A stretch of 64,000 nt of DNA from Gilliamella sp. ESL0405 (lineage in GTDB: Bacteria; Pseudomonadota; Gammaproteobacteria; Enterobacterales; Orbaceae), in contig NZ_CP048265.1 in assembly GCF_019469205.1 (NCBI RefSeq), positions 1,984,001-2,048,000 of the forward strand, in the 5' to 3' direction. Numbering within the stretch: position 1 is the stretch's first letter; each line of letters opens with the position of its first letter. This document shows, in pieces, positions 6,905-61,875 of this stretch. Under the pieces are notes generated by a model. The model ran no database searches. It had not been told where the DNA came from and was given only the letters and a program-made list of their open reading frames with translations. A program made the position numbers and the translations under genes.

Positions 6905-7090
6905 ACCATCTCTGAGATGTTCGCGAGAAGGGTTAGTCCCCTGAGCCGATATTCTTTATTTTAGAACGGTGTGATTTTTAATTGGTGTGTATGCCTTATT
7001 TATAAGGAAACCTAAAAATTAAAACATATTGTTCACCTTGAACCTTGGGTTCAAGGGTTACAACCTTAACGACATCTTGGAGTGTTTTAC
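6905..7090 (+). ncRNA. ssrS: 6S RNA
   Basis: The region shows the hallmark blocks of gammaproteobacterial 6S RNA: CTCTGAGATGTTCGCGAG near 6910, AGTCCCCTGAGCCGATATT near 6935, TTCACCTTGAACC and GGGTTCAAGGGTTACA around 7032-7061, and the closing-stem strand ACATCTTGGAG near 7072-7082. It folds as a long rod with a central bulge that mimics an open promoter and sequesters sigma-70 RNA polymerase in stationary phase. Its position between zapA and fau is the conserved one, and fau is normally co-transcribed. Ends are estimated to within a few bases. Confidence 0.95.
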
Positions 7091-10075: not shown

Positions 10076-10699
10076 CTATTGTTTAATGATTTGTTTCAGT
10101 TTTGCCAATAAACCCGAATAATCAACTTGATTAAAATGGGTAACATCCACTTCGATCAACTGCCCCAAAGCAAACTCGTCGTACTGTCTAGTTTGACAGA
10201 TTTGATAAAATTGTGATTTAGTGACTAAATCGTCGGCCAAACTACGATCTTCAAGTTTATCGCCATAGTGATAGTGCTGCATAATATGACTCAAATGCCG
10301 TTCCGGCGAGCGGTCTCGTTGATAGCGACGTTGCCATAACACATCAAAATCAGCAATTAGGCGGATTGTGATGACTTGATAATGATACTTTTGCGCCAAC
10401 TCACTCAGTCGCTTTTTTTGCTTATCACTAAAGGGGTATTCAGAAATAATAATGCGTTTACCGGCATCCATATACAGTTGTAAAACACCATAATAAAAAT
10501 GCCAAACTTTGTGCTCAAGTGCCTGCTTTTCAGCTTTCGAATTAAAACCAACTGAGTCAGCATATAAAACTTTCGCTTCATCGGGTGTTATCACGAAACT
10601 ATCTTTAAATTGTTGTTGCAATTTATTAACCAGATAAGTCTTTCCTGTACAAGGGCAGCCAGCGAGTAAAATTAAATATTTACGCATACTCACGCTCAC
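10076..10699 (-). CDS. P-loop kinase of the PTS operon (AAA-type, small)
   Basis: The 207-residue protein has a Walker A motif GCPCTGKT at residues 14-21 after a beta-strand (YLILLA), and an arginine-rich lid region (QRRYQRDRSPERH near residues 125-140), the layout of small nucleotide/sugar kinases and zeta-toxin-like phosphotransferases of the P-loop class. It starts on the base following the stop codon of the aldolase gene, so translation is coupled. Context suggests it phosphorylates a sugar phosphate delivered by the PTS, giving a bisphosphate for the aldolase; this is inference. An alternative start at 10687 is possible. No specific substrate can be read from the sequence. Confidence 0.7.
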   Translation of the reverse strand: MSVSMRKYLILLAGCPCTGKTYLVNKLQQQFKDSFVITPDEAKVLYADSVGFNSKAEKQALEHKVWHFYYGVLQLYMDAGKRIIISEYPFSDKQKKRLSELAQKYHYQVITIRLIADFDVLWQRRYQRDRSPERHLSHIMQHYHYGDKLEDRSLADDLVTKSQFYQICQTRQYDEFALGQLIEVDVTHFNQVDYSGLLAKLKQIIKQ

Positions 10700-11557
10700 T
10701 TAGTTTACACAATTATTGGTATTGAGAAATAAACGCATTTTATGCTTCACTATCTCTTTAACCGCCTCATTAGCTGGAATAATATTATGGCGTAATGATT
10801 GATTAATTTCAGTCTGGGAAAATTTATCTTTTGCAACTTGTGTCCAGTTAACTAATAACTCTGTGCCAACATTAAATTTACGTATACCGTTATTAATCAG
10901 TTCCGGATAATCCTCCTCTTTGACTCCTGTTCCGCCGTGAATGACCAAAGGAATATCAACCTTAGCATGAATTTCTTTCAATAACGGTATATTTACCTCT
11001 GTTTTTGACTTAAATTGCCCATGATTGGTACCTATAGCAATGGCTAAAGCATCAATTCCCGTTGCTTTTACAAATGCCAGTGCATCTTCAGGTTTGGTAT
11101 AAACTTTATCGTTAGCATCAACATGAACACCTTCCTCTGTTCCGCCGATTGTCCCTAATTCGCCTTCAACTGATACGCCATGAGCATGGGCATATTCCAC
11201 CACCGCGCGGGTTTTTAAAATGTTTTCTTTAAATGGTAGTGAAGATCCGTCAAACATGACCGAAGTAAATCCGCTATCAATCGCCTGCTTTATATCATCA
11301 AAATTTTTAGCATGATCGAGGTGCAATACCGCATCGACTATCTCTTCATCGGCAATAGCTTTTACGGCATTGACTAAAACTTTAAAGCCAATATACCTTG
11401 CGGTATCAACGCTTGTTTGGATGATAATTGGTGCGCCAACCTCTTTTGCCGCCCGTAACATCGCAGGTAACATTTCTAAATTATGCGTATTAAACGCACC
11501 AACAGTGAAATTTAATTTTTGAGCTAATAAAGTCACATCTTTAAGTGTGGTGTACAT
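10700..11557 (-). CDS. Class II ketose-bisphosphate aldolase (GatY/KbaY/Fba-like)
   Basis: The 285-residue zinc-dependent aldolase carries the class II signatures: HLDHAK (catalytic Asp81, zinc ligand His82), EGELGTIGGTEEG (131-143), the zinc ligand in GTNHG (His179) and the phosphate-loop HGGTG (His207 zinc ligand). Length matches tagatose/fructose-bisphosphate aldolases. It should split a ketose 1,6-bisphosphate or 1-phosphate into dihydroxyacetone phosphate and an aldehyde. It lies in a PTS operon between a small TPR-like gene and a P-loop kinase. The exact sugar cannot be deduced; it differs from the housekeeping Fba context. Confidence 0.88.
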   Translation of the reverse strand: MYTTLKDVTLLAQKLNFTVGAFNTHNLEMLPAMLRAAKEVGAPIIIQTSVDTARYIGFKVLVNAVKAIADEEIVDAVLHLDHAKNFDDIKQAIDSGFTSVMFDGSSLPFKENILKTRAVVEYAHAHGVSVEGELGTIGGTEEGVHVDANDKVYTKPEDALAFVKATGIDALAIAIGTNHGQFKSKTEVNIPLLKEIHAKVDIPLVIHGGTGVKEEDYPELINNGIRKFNVGTELLVNWTQVAKDKFSQTEINQSLRHNIIPANEAVKEIVKHKMRLFLNTNNCVN

Positions 11558-11568
11558 AATTATTTCCT

Positions 11569-11976
11569 TTAATCTCGTTGAATAGTCATCTGTTTAGCAA
11601 TATTGCGCATAGCATCCATTTTATTCATCCAAATATCGATATCAGCCAATGAGCCATGCTGAGCGGCATAAGCTCGCTTAGCGTTATACAAATTCATTAA
11701 TGTTTTATAACCCTCGCCAATTGATTTCTTATGCTGTTGGCTCTTTTCTAAATACTCAATAGCCAAATCAATATGATTTAATTGATGATAAAGCAAGCCG
11801 ATTTGTTCACATGATGAGGCTAATATCAGCAAATCATCGGTCTTTTCGATCTGCGCCAATAATGGGCTAATCTTTAGCTCAATCTGTTCAATTTGCTGAG
11901 CTGTCAGACTGCTTTTAACCTCTGAATCGGGAGCGAGATTTGTTTTAGGTGCCTTTTTTTTAAAAAAGTTAAACAT
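11569..11976 (-). CDS. Small TPR-like cytosolic protein in PTS operon
   Basis: This 135-residue protein has a basic N-terminus (FNFFKKKAPK), then helices resembling one or two tetratricopeptide repeats (residues about 55-115, including EQIGLLYHQLNHIDLAIEYL). It has no signal peptide or enzymatic motif that I recognise. It sits between the EIIC and aldolase genes with short spacings (14 and 11 bases), so it is part of the operon. A scaffolding or regulatory role is possible, but I have no evidence for one. Confidence 0.6.
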   Translation of the reverse strand: MFNFFKKKAPKTNLAPDSEVKSSLTAQQIEQIELKISPLLAQIEKTDDLLILASSCEQIGLLYHQLNHIDLAIEYLEKSQQHKKSIGEGYKTLMNLYNAKRAYAAQHGSLADIDIWMNKMDAMRNIAKQMTIQRD

Positions 11977-11990
11977 GTCAAACTCCTAAA

Positions 11991-13280
11991 CTAAAAGTGC
12001 TTCAATATCGGGCTTAATATCCACGCATAAAGCAGTGCCACGGTGACAGTATCAACATCAGTTGCCGTTGCATTGATAAACCCCATTTGATTAAAGATAG
12101 TAACAAGCAAAGCAGGCAGCAAAGTAATAAATATCCCATGCGCAATACCGCCGATAAGCGCACCACGGCGACCACCAACTGCATTACCAAAGATCCCTGC
12201 CGTACCGCCGGCAAAAAAGTTGGTTAACATTCCCGGTAAAATCATCGCCAGACCAAAGGCAGGTAGCGTTAACATGGCAATTACGGTACCTATAGAGGTG
12301 GTAATAAAACCTAAAATCACCGCATTTGGGCTATAAGGGAAAAATACCGGGCAATCAAGCGCCGGAATTGCATTCGGTACAACTTTCATTGCGATACCTC
12401 TAAATGCCGGAACAATTTCACCGAGTAATAACCTCACGCCAGCAAGTAACACATAGATTCCAACGACAAATATTATCGCTTGGGTAAAGGCATAAATGAC
12501 GTAATTTTGACTACCGGATAAGGTTGAAGCATACGCTTCACCAGCGAAAAGAGCGGTAATAATATAAAGCGGGATCATAACCACCATGACGGATAAATAA
12601 GTATCTTGCAAAAATTCAAATGATTTAGGCAACTTCATATCTTCAATAGAACGCTTGTTTTCACCTCGCTCCCCTACCAGATAAGCTACGCCAGCCTCGA
12701 ATAAATAGCCAATTGTACAAAAGTGCCCTAATGCAATGTCATTGGATCCGGTCACTTTACGAATAATGGGTTGGGCAATGGCAGGCATAAATACAGCAAA
12801 AAGTGCACCAATAAACCCGCCAACCAAAATTAGTGTTATTCCGGACAGTCCGGCAAAACTACCAAATACCGTTGTCATTGTTGCCATCCATAAAATAGCC
12901 TGCCCAGTTAAAAAAATGTATTTCCAACGTGTAAAACGAGCAATAAGAATATTGAAGATAAAGATCATCAAAAACGTTAGAGCAATATCACGACCTAATC
13001 CTAACTGATTCATTGCTTGCCCGTTAATTGCTTCAATTGAGGGAATAATGCCTTGCATATCAAAGCCAGCGGTAAAGATATGCCCAAAATAGGTCAAACT
13101 TCCCACAATGATACTGGATCCGGCATTGAGTACTTGAAAACCCAATAAGGTTTTCAGTGAGCCGGAAATAATTTGTCCAACGGATTTACGTTGCAAAATC
13201 AACCCAAACATAGCAATTAAGCTAATGGTTATCGAAGCTTGAGTTAAAATATTGTCGATAATAAAGTTAATCACATTCAT
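11991..13280 (-). CDS. PTS EIIC permease, ascorbate/galactitol (UlaA) family
   Basis: The 429-residue membrane protein has about ten hydrophobic segments and resembles UlaA/SgaT: an N-terminal RKSVGQIISGSLKTLLGF segment and a C-terminal ALDCPVFFPYSPNAVILGF segment match that family's conserved regions. It transports its substrate while the partner EIIB phosphorylates it. UlaA homologues move L-ascorbate, but the family is wider and the rest of the L-ascorbate pathway (UlaG lactonase, UlaD-F) is absent here, so the substrate is probably different. It follows the EIIB gene by 21 bases. Confidence 0.85.
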   Translation of the reverse strand: MNVINFIIDNILTQASITISLIAMFGLILQRKSVGQIISGSLKTLLGFQVLNAGSSIIVGSLTYFGHIFTAGFDMQGIIPSIEAINGQAMNQLGLGRDIALTFLMIFIFNILIARFTRWKYIFLTGQAILWMATMTTVFGSFAGLSGITLILVGGFIGALFAVFMPAIAQPIIRKVTGSNDIALGHFCTIGYLFEAGVAYLVGERGENKRSIEDMKLPKSFEFLQDTYLSVMVVMIPLYIITALFAGEAYASTLSGSQNYVIYAFTQAIIFVVGIYVLLAGVRLLLGEIVPAFRGIAMKVVPNAIPALDCPVFFPYSPNAVILGFITTSIGTVIAMLTLPAFGLAMILPGMLTNFFAGGTAGIFGNAVGGRRGALIGGIAHGIFITLLPALLVTIFNQMGFINATATDVDTVTVALLYAWILSPILKHF

Positions 13281-13301
13281 GGTAGTCTCCTTTTTGTGGA
13301 T

Positions 13302-13604
13302 TTAAAGCAATCCCTTTTGTTGCAATACTGGACTTAACTTCTCATCAATTTCCGCTTTTGATACTATATTTTTAAGATAGACCACTGCGGTTTGTTCACT
13401 GATATTGAATTTAGCAAACTGAGGGCGGAAATTTTCAGCTGTGATGATAATATCGGCCTTGGTTGAGGCCGCAGATGAAATATCGGTGTGATCTAACTTG
13501 GCTTCGATACCTTTTGCTTTTAATACATCTTCGGTTGCCATTTGTGCAGCAAAACTACTGCCTAACCCTGCACCACATACAAATAAAATGGTTAAATTAC
13601 TCAT
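13302..13604 (-). CDS. PTS EIIB component (ascorbate/lactose-type fold)
   Basis: The 100-residue protein has the phosphorylatable cysteine Cys10 in LFVCGAGLGSS, the P-loop of UlaB/SgaB-type EIIB proteins. It accepts phosphate from an EIIA domain and donates it to the sugar bound by the EIIC. No separate EIIA gene is seen; an EIIA-like domain is fused to the regulator encoded upstream and may fill that role. It is the first structural gene after the regulator. Confidence 0.88.
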   Translation of the reverse strand: MSNLTILFVCGAGLGSSFAAQMATEDVLKAKGIEAKLDHTDISSAASTKADIIITAENFRPQFAKFNISEQTAVVYLKNIVSKAEIDEKLSPVLQQKGLL

Positions 13605-13631
13605 GTTCTATTCTCCTTCGGATTTAACTAT

Positions 13632-15719
13632 TCAATCCGATTTTGCTTCATTAAATAAAATTGACTTAAATTGCGTTATGCTTTGACATTTGGTTAAGTG
13701 CTCCAGTTTTTGTTCATCATTAATTAATTCAATCAAACTGCGCATAATGTTGAGATGAGAAAACGAATCGATAGCGGCTAAACAAAATATAATTTTCACT
13801 GGCCCCATATCATCATTACCAAAATCAACCGGTTGACGCATCGTCACTACGCTCAGACCTAATTGGTTTACCCCGTCTTCAGGGCGAGCATGCGCTAGGG
13901 CTAAATTTTTACCAATCACAATATAAGGGCCATACTGTTCAACCGATGTGATCATGGCATCGACGTAAGAAGGTAAAATAAACTGTTTGTTTAATAGTGG
14001 TTCAGCAGCGATTTGGATAGCCTTTCGCCAATCATGGCAGTCTTGATGTAATAAAATGTCATCATCAGTAAGAATATCTTTCAACATAGGCTGGATTTTC
14101 CTTTTATTGATTTTAAGATTATTAAGCGCTAAACACTTTTCAAGTTGGTTATAGATAGGCTCGGACACAATACCGCCACTTTCTTTAATTAAATTAACAA
14201 GTGAATAGAACAGATCCGTTGCATCTGTTAGGTGATTGATACGCCGATTAGCACGATGTTTAGTTAAAAAGTCTTTAATGATTGGATGATTTTTTTCTTT
14301 TAATATGGGTTCTAACACTAAAACCGGATGAGCAAAATGCTGCAAAGGGAAAGTAGAAAATATTAAATCAAAATCAAGCTGATCCAATAAATTTAAATCA
14401 TTGCGACCCAAAATCGCTAAAACATCTATACTAAAAAACTCTTTGAGTGTCTGTGCAAGTAGATTAGAAGTTGCTATACCATGACAACACAACACCACAG
14501 CTTTAAAATAGTAACTGCGATCTTGATTAATGGCGCTGGCAAAGGTTGAAAAATGAATTGTCAAAAAAGCGATTTCATCATCAGAAATCTTATGGCTTAG
14601 TTTTGTTTCAAGCTCATGCATAAAAGTGGTAATAGCTGCATGAATTTCACCGTAATTTTGTTTAATACTATCAAGCAATGGATTAATAATGTGAATATTA
14701 TTACTCACTCTGGCAATTAACCCGGCTAAGTGCTTGCAAAGGTTTTCATATAACTGTTCTTGTTTGGTCGAAAATGGGATTTGCGTTTTTTCTTCAACAT
14801 AATTAACCAATTTAATCGCTAATAACTGTGCATTGAGCCATTCGACATAGTTATTAATATCCTTAGTATTAAATGCCTCCAGCATGTAAATGATATATTG
14901 GCGCTCTTGCCAATTTACCTGCAATGCGAAATGCTTGCACACCAAATGAATAAAGTTAGCTATTTGTCCCTGTTCGTTATTATTAAAATCAGATCTGACC
15001 ATTGTCAGATGATGTTGATGCTGATTACGAACAATCCAAATAGCGGTAAAAATAACAATTTGTTGAACATAAATTTCATCATGTATCTGACTGATAGTTC
15101 GGTGCGCTAACTGCAATAAGTTATCAATCAATAATTGAGGAATATAATTAAACAAATGTTGTTGTATCGAACTGAGTTCATGTAGAGGCTTATCTAGATC
15201 TAAATTTGCGGCAAATTGGTTAATAGCTTCATACATCATTAAGCGAATCGAGCGCTCTAATCCGACAAATTGCATCCCTTGTTTAGGTTGGCTAATTAAT
15301 TCAATATCATATTTTTTTAATCGTGCTCTGATTTTACGAATATCTTCATCTAACACACTTTTTGAAACAAAATAGACTGCTTCTTTATGGCTTAAAATAA
15401 CGGGTGTTTTAGCAAAAGCAATTGACAATAACAAATCAAACTGGCGCTCATCTTTGCTCAAAACGGCTGATGTGGGCAAGCCAAGTAATGCATGTTGAAT
15501 AAGCTGTTTTTGATCTTGATCGGCATGGATAATAAATCCTTTATTACGCACAGTGGTGATTAAAGTGAAATGTCTTTGGGATAAGAACTCATTAATTTCT
15601 TGAATTTCATTACGAATAGTTCGAGCGCTAATTTGAAACTCTTCTGTAAGCATTTCAATGGTTAATGGGTAGTCGACTGAAATGAATTTTTTAAATAATT
15701 CAATGGTTCTACTTCGCAT
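13632..15719 (-). CDS. PRD-containing transcriptional activator with fused EIIB- and EIIA-like domains (MtlR/LicR type)
   Basis: The 695-residue protein has an N-terminal helix-turn-helix (about residues 5-60), a second HTH-like segment, PTS regulation domains (about 175-395, with conserved histidines such as KHLAGLI and TIHFSTF), an EIIB-like domain (about 405-490, with CCHGIATSN) and a C-terminal EIIA domain (about 550-690) with the phospho-histidine in ALAHARPEDGV. Such proteins sense PTS phosphorylation and activate a sugar operon. It lacks the RNA-binding CAT domain of BglG, so it should act on DNA. It sits 27 bases upstream of the EIIB gene and probably controls the operon downstream. 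Confidence 0.87.
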   Translation of the reverse strand: MRSRTIELFKKFISVDYPLTIEMLTEEFQISARTIRNEIQEINEFLSQRHFTLITTVRNKGFIIHADQDQKQLIQHALLGLPTSAVLSKDERQFDLLLSIAFAKTPVILSHKEAVYFVSKSVLDEDIRKIRARLKKYDIELISQPKQGMQFVGLERSIRLMMYEAINQFAANLDLDKPLHELSSIQQHLFNYIPQLLIDNLLQLAHRTISQIHDEIYVQQIVIFTAIWIVRNQHQHHLTMVRSDFNNNEQGQIANFIHLVCKHFALQVNWQERQYIIYMLEAFNTKDINNYVEWLNAQLLAIKLVNYVEEKTQIPFSTKQEQLYENLCKHLAGLIARVSNNIHIINPLLDSIKQNYGEIHAAITTFMHELETKLSHKISDDEIAFLTIHFSTFASAINQDRSYYFKAVVLCCHGIATSNLLAQTLKEFFSIDVLAILGRNDLNLLDQLDFDLIFSTFPLQHFAHPVLVLEPILKEKNHPIIKDFLTKHRANRRINHLTDATDLFYSLVNLIKESGGIVSEPIYNQLEKCLALNNLKINKRKIQPMLKDILTDDDILLHQDCHDWRKAIQIAAEPLLNKQFILPSYVDAMITSVEQYGPYIVIGKNLALAHARPEDGVNQLGLSVVTMRQPVDFGNDDMGPVKIIFCLAAIDSFSHLNIMRSLIELINDEQKLEHLTKCQSITQFKSILFNEAKSD

Positions 15720-41028: not shown

Positions 41029-41107
41029 AAATTAACAATTAATAATACTATTTTAGTTCAATTTTCATTATCTTATACCCGTGATGTGATTAACTTTGGG
41101 AGAAGAC

Positions 41108-43225
41108 ATGAACTATCATCTTAGAAATAATAATATCGATATTATCTTACGCACTAAACCTTATGCAGAACTTTGTTATTTTGGTAAACGGTTACATGAC
41201 AAATCACCGGATGCGATAGATATGTTTATACCTGCGGTGCCTAATGCGCGTATTGATGTTGACGTACCTTTTACGCTTAGCCCCGAAGAAGGCTTAGGTA
41301 ATTTTAGTACCCCCGGGCTTGAAGGGCATCGAAATGGCCAAGATTGGTCACCTGTTTTTGTCACCAAAGAAGTTAAAACATCCGGTAATGACATCACCAT
41401 AATCAGTGAGGATAATATTGCAAAACTCCGGTTAACTAGCAGATTAATTTTGGATGATAGCGGCGTTTTGCAGTGTCAAAATAGTCTGACTAATTTAGCA
41501 GATGAACCCTATCAAGTTAGCCGTCTATCAGTAACACTACCTATTCCGGAACGAGCGCAGGAGCTAATGGCATTTAGTGGGCGGTGGATTAAAGAGTTTT
41601 TCCCACACCGAACAAAAATAGAACATTGTGGATATTTACAGGAAAACCGCCGTGGGCGCACATCGCACGAATATTTTCCGGGAATGGTTGTAGGCGCAGA
41701 AGGATTTAAAGAACAGACTGGCGAAGTTTGGGGAATTCATTTGGGTTGGAGTGGTAATCACCGAATTCAAGTCGCCGTAAAAAGTAATGGTAAACGTTTT
41801 ATTCAAGCAGAAGCTCTCTACTATTCAGGTGAGATATCTTTAGCTAAAGGAGAAACACTCAGCACGCCTTGGCTATATGCGACTTATAGCGATGAAGGCT
41901 TAAATAAAATGAGCCAAAATTTTCATCAATTTTTACGCCAAAATATCATTAAATTTGTACAAAATAAACCACGTCCGGTACATCTTAATACTTGGGAAGG
42001 GATCTTTTTTGACCATAACCCGGAGTATATTATGCAAATGGCAACCAAAGCAGCTCAAATGGGCGTGGAACGCTTTATTATTGACGACGGTTGGTTTGGT
42101 AAACGAGACGATGACTATCAAGCATTAGGTGATTGGTATTTAGATGAACGAAAATACCCAAATGGTTTAGAGCCTGTAATCAAACATGTGAAAGATCTCG
42201 GTATGGAATTTGGTATCTGGGTCGAACCGGAGATGATCAATAAAAATTCTGATCTTTATCGGGCTCATCCGGATTGGTTACTCGAGTTACAAGGTTACAA
42301 TCAACCAGAAGGGCGACATCAATATTTACTCGATTTACAAAATCCAGCCGTTTTTGATTACCTATTGGAAAGATTGACTTGGTTGCTCAGTAGTTATGAT
42401 ATTGATTACATTAAATGGGATATGAATCGTGAAATCGTTCAAGCTGGTCATGAAGGCTACCCGGCAATTGTCGGACAAACAAAAGCACTTTATCGATTGA
42501 TTGATATCTTACAACAAAAATTCCCTCATGTTGAAATTGAATCGTGTTCATCAGGTGGTGGGCGTATTGATTATGAGATTTTAAAACGAACTCAACGTTT
42601 CTGGACTTCAGACTCTAACGATGCCTTAGATCGACAAATTATTCAACGTGGTATGAGTTATTTCTTCCCTCCAGAGGTAATGGGGGCGCATATTGGTGGT
42701 GCATTATGCCATACAACTTTCCGTCAATTACACATGAATTTACGGGGCTTAACAGCGTTATTCGGACATATGGGCGTTGAGCTAGACCCGGTTAAAGAGT
42801 CAGACGCTGAGCAACAAGGTTTTGCGCACTATATCAAATTACATAAACAACTTCGGCCATTACTGCATAATGGTAACAGCGTTCGTTTAGATGTGGACGA
42901 TGCGCCAGCTATGCAAAGTTATGGGGTTGTCAGCCAAGACCAAAAACAAGCCGCTTTCATTGTCGCACAATTAGCACTACCAACTTATGCATTAAGTGGT
43001 AATTTACGTTTAACAGGTTTATTACCGGATAAACAATATCACATTGAAGTGTTAGATATGCCGGATAATATTGATCCAAAAATTAGTGGTCATGCAATGA
43101 AAGTATTACCAAAATGGATGGAGCAACAAACCATATTATCTGGAGATTGGTTAATGAATATCGGATTACCATTGCCAGTTCTAGATCCTGCTACGGCAAT
43201 GCTGATAAAAGTAACAGCTAAATAA
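41108..43225 (+). CDS. Alpha-galactosidase, GH36 family
   Basis: The 705-residue cytoplasmic enzyme (no signal peptide) should hydrolyse alpha-1,6-galactosides such as melibiose and raffinose. It has a beta-rich N-terminal domain (1-330), a TIM barrel with DDGWFGKRDDD (about 336-346), the nucleophile in IKWDMN (Asp438) and the acid/base in TSDSNDALDR (Asp502), and a C-terminal beta domain. The ATG at 41108 follows a GGGAGAAG ribosome-binding site; an in-frame TTG four codons earlier is less likely. It is followed by a GalR-type regulator gene and, after the porin, by lacZ. Confidence 0.95.
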   Translation: MNYHLRNNNIDIILRTKPYAELCYFGKRLHDKSPDAIDMFIPAVPNARIDVDVPFTLSPEEGLGNFSTPGLEGHRNGQDWSPVFVTKEVKTSGNDITIISEDNIAKLRLTSRLILDDSGVLQCQNSLTNLADEPYQVSRLSVTLPIPERAQELMAFSGRWIKEFFPHRTKIEHCGYLQENRRGRTSHEYFPGMVVGAEGFKEQTGEVWGIHLGWSGNHRIQVAVKSNGKRFIQAEALYYSGEISLAKGETLSTPWLYATYSDEGLNKMSQNFHQFLRQNIIKFVQNKPRPVHLNTWEGIFFDHNPEYIMQMATKAAQMGVERFIIDDGWFGKRDDDYQALGDWYLDERKYPNGLEPVIKHVKDLGMEFGIWVEPEMINKNSDLYRAHPDWLLELQGYNQPEGRHQYLLDLQNPAVFDYLLERLTWLLSSYDIDYIKWDMNREIVQAGHEGYPAIVGQTKALYRLIDILQQKFPHVEIESCSSGGGRIDYEILKRTQRFWTSDSNDALDRQIIQRGMSYFFPPEVMGAHIGGALCHTTFRQLHMNLRGLTALFGHMGVELDPVKESDAEQQGFAHYIKLHKQLRPLLHNGNSVRLDVDDAPAMQSYGVVSQDQKQAAFIVAQLALPTYALSGNLRLTGLLPDKQYHIEVLDMPDNIDPKISGHAMKVLPKWMEQQTILSGDWLMNIGLPLPVLDPATAMLIKVTAK

Positions 43226-43575: not shown

Positions 43576-44583
43576 ATGGCGACAATAAAAGATGTTGCAC
43601 AATTAGCTAAAGTATCTGTTGCAACAGTATCAAGAGTGATCAATAACGCAGACAATGTCAGTGATAAAACACGTGAAATTGTGAAAAAAGCCATGGAAAA
43701 ATTAGACTATTATCCAGATGCTAATGCACGTGCATTATCCCAGCAAAATTCAAATACAATCGGTATTGTCGTTGCGGATGTCTCTGATCCTTTTTTTGGC
43801 GCTATGGTCACAACAATTGAGAAAGTGGCCAAACGAACAGGAAACTTTTTATTAATTGGTAATGGATATCATCAAGAAGAACAAGAATACAATGCTATCA
43901 CGCAGCTCATTGAACACCGATGCTCATCACTGGTTATCCATGCTAAAGTTTTGCCAGATTCTAGATTAATAAAGTTAATGCAACAAGTGCCGGGCATGGT
44001 TTTAATTAACCGAATAGTAAAAGGTTTTGAAAAACGTTGTATCGCTCTTGATGATCGCTATGGGTCATATTTAGCGGTTAAACATTTGATCCAAAATGGT
44101 CATCGTCAAATTGGTTATTTATGTTCTAATCATGAAATATCTGACTCATCAGATCGATTACAAGGTTATAAAGAGGCATTAGCTGAACATAATATAAAAG
44201 TTGATGAAAATTTAATTACTTTTGCATCACCAAATGAAGTCGGTGGCGAGCAAGCAATGATGTCATTACTTGAACGCAATCGTCAGATTACCGCTATAGC
44301 TTGCTACAACGACTCCATGGCAGCTGGTGCAATGTCCGTACTTTATGACAACGATATTAAGATCCCTAACGAAGTTTCGATTATTGGTTTTGATGATTTA
44401 TTACTGGCAAGGTACTTACATCCAAAATTAACCACTGTTCGCTATCCGTTACAAACTATGGCTGAGCAAGCTGCTGAACTTGCCTTGTTATTAGCTAAAG
44501 GCGAAGAGCCTCCGACTAATCTAGTTAATGTATTTGTACCAACATTAACCAAACGCTATTCAGTTAATTTTATTCAAGAATAA
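43576..44583 (+). CDS. LacI-family repressor, GalR/GalS-like
   Basis: The 335-residue protein has an N-terminal helix-turn-helix (TIKDVAQLAKVSVATVSRVINN, residues 3-24), and its core is GalS/GalR-like (DVSDPFFGAMV, LLIGNGYH, VLINRIV, YNDSMAAGA, IIGFDD). GalR-type repressors bind GTGTAANCGNTTACAC sites and respond to galactose. Matching sites occur before the alpha-galactosidase gene and lacZ. It lies between the two genes with its own 5' region of about 270 bases and ends in a strong terminator. Confidence 0.9.
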   Translation: MATIKDVAQLAKVSVATVSRVINNADNVSDKTREIVKKAMEKLDYYPDANARALSQQNSNTIGIVVADVSDPFFGAMVTTIEKVAKRTGNFLLIGNGYHQEEQEYNAITQLIEHRCSSLVIHAKVLPDSRLIKLMQQVPGMVLINRIVKGFEKRCIALDDRYGSYLAVKHLIQNGHRQIGYLCSNHEISDSSDRLQGYKEALAEHNIKVDENLITFASPNEVGGEQAMMSLLERNRQITAIACYNDSMAAGAMSVLYDNDIKIPNEVSIIGFDDLLLARYLHPKLTTVRYPLQTMAEQAAELALLLAKGEEPPTNLVNVFVPTLTKRYSVNFIQE

Positions 44584-44693: not shown

Positions 44694-46421
<1,728 letters not shown>

Positions 46422-46476
46422 CTACTCATTTATTTTGCTGAACAATTAAAAGCCCCGTAAATTTGGGACAAAAAAA

Positions 46477-46510
46477 AACCTAAAGAACAGTTTTCGCTGT
46501 TCTTTAGGTT
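46477..46510 (-). terminator. Conditional terminator in the porin leader
   Basis: A perfect 14-bp stem (AACCTAAAGAACAG and its complement) with a 6-nt loop is followed, on the minus strand, by eight or nine T residues. It lies about 60 bases upstream of the porin start codon, inside the leader, so transcription must read through it to express the porin. Confidence 0.9.
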
Positions 46511-46541
46511 TTGCCCGATAATATATGCTCGGTAACAATCC
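46507..46541 (-). promoter_or_regulatory. Ribonucleic antiterminator (RAT) of the BglG/LicT family
   Basis: On the minus strand it reads GGATTGTTAC-CGA, a 10-nt loop, TC-GGGCAAAACC, which matches the bgl/LicT RAT consensus (GGATTGTTACTG ... CAGGCAAAACC). Its 3' end overlaps the terminator stem by four bases, so protein-bound RAT and the terminator are mutually exclusive. Confidence 0.87.
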
Positions 46542-46564
46542 AAATCCATTTATGGACGCTTTTT

Positions 46565-46592
46565 AATATAACGAATAAAAATGGTTATTCAA
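46565..46592 (-). promoter_or_regulatory. Predicted porin promoter
   Basis: On the minus strand TTGAAT (46592-46587) and TATATT (46570-46565) are 16 bases apart. The CRP site centre is about 60 bases upstream of the predicted start near 46558, suitable for class I activation. The start lies upstream of the RAT. Confidence 0.6.
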
Positions 46593-46609: not shown

Positions 46610-46625
46610 TGTGAACTATATCACA
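46610..46625. promoter_or_regulatory. CRP site between the porin gene and lacZ
   Basis: TGTGA-ACTATA-TCACA is a perfect match to the TGTGA-N6-TCACA consensus. Confidence 0.88.
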
Positions 46626-46717: not shown

Positions 46718-46733
46718 GTGTATACGATTACAT
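46718..46733. promoter_or_regulatory. GalR-like operator upstream of lacZ
   Basis: GTGTATACGATTACAT matches the GalR consensus at 12 of 14 informative positions and lies 112 bases upstream of the lacZ start. Confidence 0.7.
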
Positions 46734-46808: not shown

Positions 46809-49931
<3,123 letters not shown>

Positions 49932-61455: not shown

Positions 61456-61725
61456 TTAGCGACGTAAACCTAGTCTTTGAATTAATTGGTTATAACGATC
61501 GAAATCTTTACGACGTAAATAATCTAATAATTTACGACGGCTAGAAACCATACGTAATAAACCACGACGGCTGTGGTGATCTTTTTTATGCTCAGAAAAA
61601 TGACCTTGTAAATCATTGATACGTGCAGTTAAAAGAGCAACTTGAACTTCAGTTGAACCAGTGTCGTTAGTTCCGCGACCATATTCAGCAACGATTTTCG
61701 CTTTAGCTTCTACAGTTAGAGACAT
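61456..61725 (-). CDS. rpsO: 30S ribosomal protein S15
   Basis: The 89-residue protein is nearly identical in pattern to E. coli S15, including [30 protein letters not shown] and QRLGLRR at the end. S15 binds 16S rRNA helices 20-22 and represses its own mRNA. I start at 61725 ([10 protein letters not shown]); an in-frame ATG at 61782 adds 19 residues not found in the family. rpsO-pnp is the conserved order. Confidence 0.97.
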
Positions 61726-61875
61726 AATAAACCTCTTAAAATTAAAATAAAAAATGGAATGACCGATCTCTAATTCAGACACTCCTCGGCATTCATATAA
61801 TCAATATATGAATTGTGCGCAATTATACTTGAAATTATTGAAATAGCAATGCGATTTATTCCTTTAATAGCAAGC

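Follow-up and report, generated by a model that had tools for sequence, protein, structure and literature searches.

A putative bgl/LicT-type attenuator in the leader of an unlinked BglH-like porin gene of Gilliamella sp. ESL0405

Introduction

The bglGFBH operon of Escherichia coli K-12 follows a RAT/terminator logic like that described here. Ribonucleic antiterminators (RATs) precede both bglG and bglF in this operon, and the RAT before bglF, GGATTGTTACCGCACTAAGCGGGCAAAACC, agrees in its core with the RAT of the Gilliamella porin gene. The porin gene bglH of E. coli lies 68 bp downstream of bglB and has no RAT match of its own, whereas the Gilliamella porin gene is unlinked and carries its own RAT. 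In Klebsiella, bglH maps apart from bglGFB, and the passages of the paper on this gene mention no RAT (PMC2646131).

The use of one antiterminator for several RAT-bearing targets, as proposed here, is known for NagY of Enterococcus faecalis and LicT of Bacillus subtilis. According to passages of a paper on NagY, a putative RAT is present at 23 of its 26 direct targets, and reports cited there put the number of E. coli targets of BglG at 12 or more (PMC12502629). The operon bglPH is named as a LicT target in B. subtilis in passages of a paper that also covers LicT of Streptococcus mutans (PMC1489936). Because these hosts of NagY and LicT are Gram-positive, an outer-membrane porin would not be expected among the targets. 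Literature searches for Gilliamella with BglG, Gilliamella with "antitermina" and "ribonucleic antiterminator" with porin found no paper.

Here we analyzed a stretch of 64,000 nucleotides of the Gilliamella sp. ESL0405 genome (the window), in which a BglG-type switch had been predicted from the letters alone in the leader of a BglH-like porin gene. The leader was compared with those of relatives in a same-genus sample of 35 genomes, own genome included, 25 of which carry the porin.

Results

As shown in Table 1, the minus strand carries a CRP-type site, a promoter, a RAT, an overlapping terminator and the LamB-family porin gene in this order. All 25 orthologous porin leaders were read, and the CRP site, the -10 element, the RAT and the terminator were present in 25/25, so that the order expected in the original prediction was confirmed both in the sequence and in the orthologues.

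Table 1. Coordinates of the features in the window.
Feature	Position	Strand	Evidence
6S RNA	6906-7086	+	Rfam
PTS EIIC-GAT permease, class-II aldolase, AAA/kinase-like protein, PRD/EIIA_2 activator	10076-15719	-	
PRD regulator	13632-15719	-	HTH_11, Mga, PRD and EIIA_2 domains
GH36 alpha-galactosidase	41096-43225	+	Pfam Melibiase and GH36 domains
GalR-like LacI-family regulator	43576-44583	+	Pfam LacI; NCBIfam GalR 557.3 bits (cut-off 557)
BglH-like LamB-family outer-membrane porin, 573 aa (start codon at 46415)	44694-46415	-	Pfam LamB 2.1e-77
Predicted intrinsic terminator, 16-bp stem (46475-46512) and T tail	46470-46512	-	fold and covariation
Putative RAT, bgl/LicT type, GGATTGTTACCG...CGGGCAAAACC	46507-46541	-	pattern match and conservation
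Small hairpin TCCAT-AA-ATGGA	46545-46556	-	fold prediction, inferred transcript 5' end
Predicted promoter, -35 TTGAAT (46587-46592) and -10 TATATT (46565-46570)	46565-46592	-	conservation
CRP-type site TGTGATATAGTTCACA	46610-46625	.	sequence match
GalR-like operator GTGTATACGATTACAT, 2 mismatches	46718-46733	+	motif search
lacZ-type GH2 beta-galactosidase, divergent from porin	46845-49931	+	Pfam
Ribosomal S15 leader	61669-61786	-	Rfam

The RAT was the sole match to strict RAT patterns in the 2,809,609-base genome, and the backward controls gave 0 matches. It agrees with the bgl/LicT consensus, as had been claimed for it, E. coli t1 and t2 being used for comparison; a search with Rfam at gathering thresholds gave no hit to the RAT. 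The terminator overlapping the RAT, with its T run, was likewise found as predicted, but the stem is 16 bp long and not 14 bp. With a loop of 6, it folded at -25.4 kcal/mol (z = -5.2), and 0/200 shuffles were as good. The letters AAAACC (46507-46512) are common to the 5' arm of the terminator and the RAT, and the two structures should therefore be mutually exclusive.

An exact TGTGA-N6-TCACA site, which we take to be the CRP motif, was present in 25/25 orthologous leaders. The distance from its center to the start of the -10 was 47 bp in 24/25 leaders and 48 bp in the remaining one. The -10 was TATATT in 23 leaders and TATAGT in 2, and it stood 29-35 nt before the RAT across the 25. The -35 is weak, and a sigma-70 promoter scan alone found 1 promoter against a shuffle mean of 3.5, which is not above chance; the promoter call is supported by the conserved CRP-to-(-10) spacing. 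Transcription of the porin gene would accordingly be expected to start near 46558.

The interval between promoter and RAT holds a small hairpin, which was predicted in 22/25 leaders (L004-L028) while its letters vary. Individually, it ranked within the best 5% of its own shuffles in 12/25 leaders, and the summed energy was -90 compared to a best shuffled sum of -50 in 300 rounds, the rows being related. The hairpin was missing in 3/25 leaders, and in a fourth (L021) it was no better than shuffles. Its role is perhaps the protection of the 5' end.

The identity of the porin was evaluated by similarity and by phylogeny. In BLASTP, 519 columns aligned with E. coli BglH at 45% identity (445 bits), compared to 60.9 bits against the maltoporin 1AF6 in phmmer, which is a different program. 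In a tree of 23 chosen porins, including 4 of the 25 from Gilliamella, it grouped with Frischella and other BglH proteins and was split from three LamB-like porins at 100/100; the porin of G061 was on a long branch beside Gilliamella, and this placement is unsure. The protein has 155 residues before the LamB domain, where Sugarporin_N (PF11471), the periplasmic N-terminal extension reported for E. coli BglH, was not reported at E 0.001. Its gene also stands outside the bgl operon, 370 kb from bglG, and a place within that operon is a usual but not a defining feature of the BglH family. Judged by its protein sequence, the porin is a BglH relative, and like that family it may transport aryl-beta-glucosides.

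The porin gene shares its intergenic region with lacZ, as the original prediction had stressed in linking two types of sugar control, and a divergent lacZ was present in 19/25 orthologous loci. A C-terminal lacZ remnant was found in 1 locus and no lacZ within 1.5 kb in 5. The remnant (L008, genome G009) lies upstream of an intact porin gene and RAT. In the window, the GalR-box motif gave 3 matches against 2.4 expected, which is not above chance. A GalR-like box with up to 3 mismatches was present upstream in 20/25 loci; it probably serves lacZ, and galactose control of lacZ through this box is plausible.

These neighbors raise the alternative that the RAT is functional while the role of the porin lies in the surrounding galactoside locus. 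BglG would then tie the uptake of galactosides to a beta-glucoside signal, and GalR-like control may act in addition. The frequent box and the joint presence of GH36, the GalR-like regulator and lacZ with the porin in 13/20 relatives' loci fetched speak for it. However, the RAT was kept in 25/25 loci, including the 5 without lacZ beside the porin and the one with the remnant, and two of the loci (L095 and L110) had the porin without GH36, the GalR-like gene or lacZ. In two Frischella genomes (L144/L222 and L223), the 13.7-19 kb of surroundings fetched for a RAT-led porin likewise contained no GH36, GalR-like or lacZ gene. The porin protein itself is nearest to BglH. In these Frischella porin leaders, a CRP-type site one mismatch off the pattern stands 71-77 nt before the RAT. 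Since the RAT and the porin persist at loci without lacZ, the lacZ link is not essential, and the claim that two types of sugar control are linked through lacZ is weak. We therefore consider the galactoside alternative unlikely and concluded that the porin, as far as the compared loci tell, follows BglG and not lacZ.

The original prediction had reported no antiterminator, and this is correct for the window, the edges of which exclude bglG, but not for the genome. The PRD regulator of the window was rejected as an antiterminator in agreement with that prediction, for it has no CAT domain beside the domains listed in Table 1. The PTS genes at its locus are probably an unrelated sugar cluster with its own DNA-binding regulator. 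A CAT_RBD profile search of the whole genome gave one match, a 280-aa CAT-PRD-PRD protein with two PRD stretches, whose gene lies at C1:1.660 Mb and is separated from the porin gene by 370 kb. It was assigned to LicT by NCBIfam (384.8 against a cut-off of 300) and is similar to the LicT/BglG-family structures 1TLV, 1H99, 6TWR and 1L1C. The histidines H100, H159 and H207 of the PRDs are common to this protein, E. coli BglG and a Pectobacterium protein, and H269 is present in Gilliamella, the aligned residue of E. coli BglG being N; these four positions, in LicT numbering, are presumably the phosphorylatable PRD histidines.

Downstream of bglG follow, in order, a RAT with its own terminator, the genes of a beta-glucoside PTS IIABC permease (TIGR01995, 714.5 against a cut-off of 614.7) and a GH1 6-phospho-beta-glucosidase, and an OprD-family porin gene. 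A looser RAT pattern matched this genome three times, namely before the porin, in the bglG-bglF interval and inside an open reading frame; the last match was set aside. The genome search that had been proposed for BglG/LicT homologues and other RATs thus returned one CAT protein with a second RAT in its operon, and this sole candidate agrees with the expectation of an unlinked antiterminator tied to a beta-glucoside PTS.

Co-occurrence of the porin and the antiterminator was counted. Among the 30 same-genus genomes that are at least 90% complete, the CAT protein was present in 21/21 with the porin compared to 5/9 without it (Fisher one-sided p = 0.0046, phylogeny uncorrected). In all 35 genomes the numbers were 23/25 and 6/10 (p = 0.043, phylogeny uncorrected). 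A short CAT match of G020, below the family cut-off, was counted as absence in both counts. A CAT match was lacking in two genomes with the porin, G024 and G031, which are 67% and 59% complete. Exactly one CAT match was found in 17 of the 25 porin-bearing genomes and two or three in 6, in which the BglG partner of the porin is uncertain.

Conservation of the leader was then considered at the level of base pairs, a check that had also been suggested. In the 25 orthologues, 5/16 pairs of the terminator stem were changed on both sides and 99.0% of the cells were paired. None of 500 shuffles reached any of five measures, and as the shuffles ignore relatedness these values are supportive and not formal probabilities. 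The RAT core was invariant in 25/25 orthologues, including the five lower-stem pairs counted, while the flanks diverged. In the upper stem of the RAT, the covariation count was not above shuffles in the 25 orthologues. Most bglF RATs have a longer upper stem than the porin RAT, and the affinity of BglG for the two may therefore not be equal.

These data bear on the possibility that the leader is a relic, inherited from a bgl operon but unread by BglG, with the terminator merely attenuating or CRP alone driving the porin. The upper stem without excess covariation would fit such a relic; but an identical core between diverging flanks, a covarying terminator and the association of porin presence with CAT protein presence make it very improbable. 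Least probable of the explanations is that the stem-loop is no antitermination switch but acts mainly post-transcriptionally, through cleavage by RNase III or through control of stability or translation, for although RNase III cuts the nagY RAT-terminator hairpin of E. faecalis according to passages of PMC12502629, a stem and T-run terminator was kept in 25/25 orthologues.

The looser RAT pattern gave 85 matches in 60 genomes compared to 2 in the backward control, and the reading as a chance match was rejected. Assigned by position and downstream gene, the 81 same-genus matches comprised 25 before the porin, 24 before bglF, 12 before an OprD-like porin gene, 12 before an exported GH3 and 8 chance or coding matches. 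These 8 were set aside: the one in an open reading frame of this genome, two without a terminator and five by match sequence and position only. Of the 43 same-genus CAT matches, 28 bglG loci were examined, one per genome. With a still looser reading, all 28 loci had a RAT 919-944 bp past the CAT-domain start, and none of them had a RAT match in the 1.5 kb upstream of that domain. Unlike in E. coli, the Gilliamella bglG genes therefore appear not to be attenuated.

A CRP site centered 68-81 nt before the RAT was found in all 28 bglF leaders examined, with an exact match in 25 and one mismatch in 3. A site at this distance was also present in all 10 GH3 leaders that were examined, 8 of them exact and 2 with a single mismatch. 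Of the OprD-like group, six leaders were examined, and none had a good CRP site (2-4 mismatches). In the bglF leader L042 (G002), the RAT ends with GCAAGACC and the 3' arm of the terminator is GGTCTTTT, a matching change on both sides.

Among G000-G020, 11 close GH3 copies were found (the query included), and 9 of them had a RAT pattern match in front. These account for 9 of the 12 GH3 matches; those of G021, G030 and G034 were assigned by N-terminal resemblance, and 2 of the 12 proteins were checked by Pfam. The GH3 of G013 has a RAT one letter off the pattern, with a terminator, and its CRP site is kept. Exported GH3 genes that stand away from bglG and carry a CRP-RAT leader each are located at L129:3057-5018 (-), L116:5905-7866 (+) and L121:4777-6738 (+). 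The GH3 leader L158 (G006) has a degraded RAT and an intact CRP site, and this target is perhaps leaving the regulon. For the 12 OprD-like matches, the gene was seen for 6 and assigned by position for the other 6, and one protein was checked by Pfam (L114). In the ESL0405 genome, the OprD-like gene has no RAT match, and the GH3 present is only 28% identical and has no RAT match there. The porin would be one of several BglG targets apart from bglG, with bglF-bglB as the linked target here.

RAT-led bglH genes are also present in other genera. In Klebsiella pneumoniae (L182 and L184) and in G356, a RAT-led, terminator-bearing bglH was found with no bglG in the fetched stretch; Klebsiella bglH has two tandem RATs, while the Gilliamella porin has one. 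The tandem RAT-terminator units, L182:3392-3514 and L184:6676-6798, resemble E. coli t1 and t2 joined. The porin match of L182 is in two pieces with no gene annotated there, and the copy of L184 is one frame. In L182 and G356, bglH adjoins phoU; downstream of bglH comes yieL (plus yieK in Klebsiella). A single RAT heads bglH in G356, the CAT proteins of which are encoded elsewhere in the genome. Frischella has a RAT-led BglH porin without bglG in the fetched stretch.

In Pectobacterium (L150, G225/L217) and G158, the porin gene follows bglB in the operon. One RAT heads bglF-bglH in G271, a RAT-led bglH faces a RAT-led bgl operon in G061, and no RAT match was found in G280 and the plasmid locus L183. 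Of 394 genomes drawn evenly across the order, 29 had a BglH-like porin at E <= 1e-60, 20 of the 29 being same-genus. A CAT protein was found in 13/13 genomes then searched, four of them without such a porin.

The view that porins with antitermination control are rare outside bgl-type operons was therefore overstated, given the Frischella and Klebsiella cases; and since the porin is a BglH relative, it is best described as a bgl-type gene sitting apart. Antiterminators with scattered targets have been published before, and this kind of switch is not new.

Discussion

The porin leader is very probably a transcriptional attenuator of the bgl/LicT type that is read in trans by a distant BglG with a dispersed regulon. 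The sequence elements of the leader are established together with their conservation and covariation, and so are the sole antiterminator gene and the RAT of its operon, whereas the binding of BglG, antitermination, the inducer and the cargo of the porin are inferred. In the proposed mechanism, CRP-cAMP would start porin transcription, and in the absence of a beta-glucoside RNA polymerase would halt when it reaches the terminator, after about 90 nt of transcript. Uptake of a beta-glucoside would lead the PTS permease BglF to dephosphorylate the CAT-PRD-PRD protein BglG. BglG would then clamp the RAT hairpin so that the terminator cannot form, and the BglH-like porin would be made. BglG may act in the same way in trans on a dispersed regulon, since the OprD-like porin and exported GH3 genes carry RATs in relatives.

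On a broader scale, we regard it as reasonably likely that the bgl attenuator of Gilliamella is a portable cassette of CRP site, promoter, RAT and terminator. This cassette would be placed at up to three promoters (PTS operon, BglH porin and exported GH3), with a RAT also at the OprD-like porin, and all copies would be read by one unattenuated BglG. Any link to amygdalin or other glycosides of nectar or pollen is speculation. In passages of a paper on amygdalin, the GH3 identified is that of Bifidobacterium, and Gilliamella strains are listed as material (PMC9897726).

If the proposed reading is true, these bee symbionts use scattered loci to induce an entire beta-glucoside pathway that runs from the surface to the cytoplasm, and RAT-led BglH porins apart from bglG arose or were kept independently in several lineages. 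The predicted regulon is compact, with one antiterminator for outer-membrane uptake, PTS import and hydrolysis, and it would serve the response of bee-gut bacteria to plant beta-glucosides. One beta-glucoside sensor can probably control several scattered genes. Moreover, unlinked genes that each carry a RAT leader can be part of antiterminator regulons in Gram-negative bacteria, and annotation by operon would overlook them.
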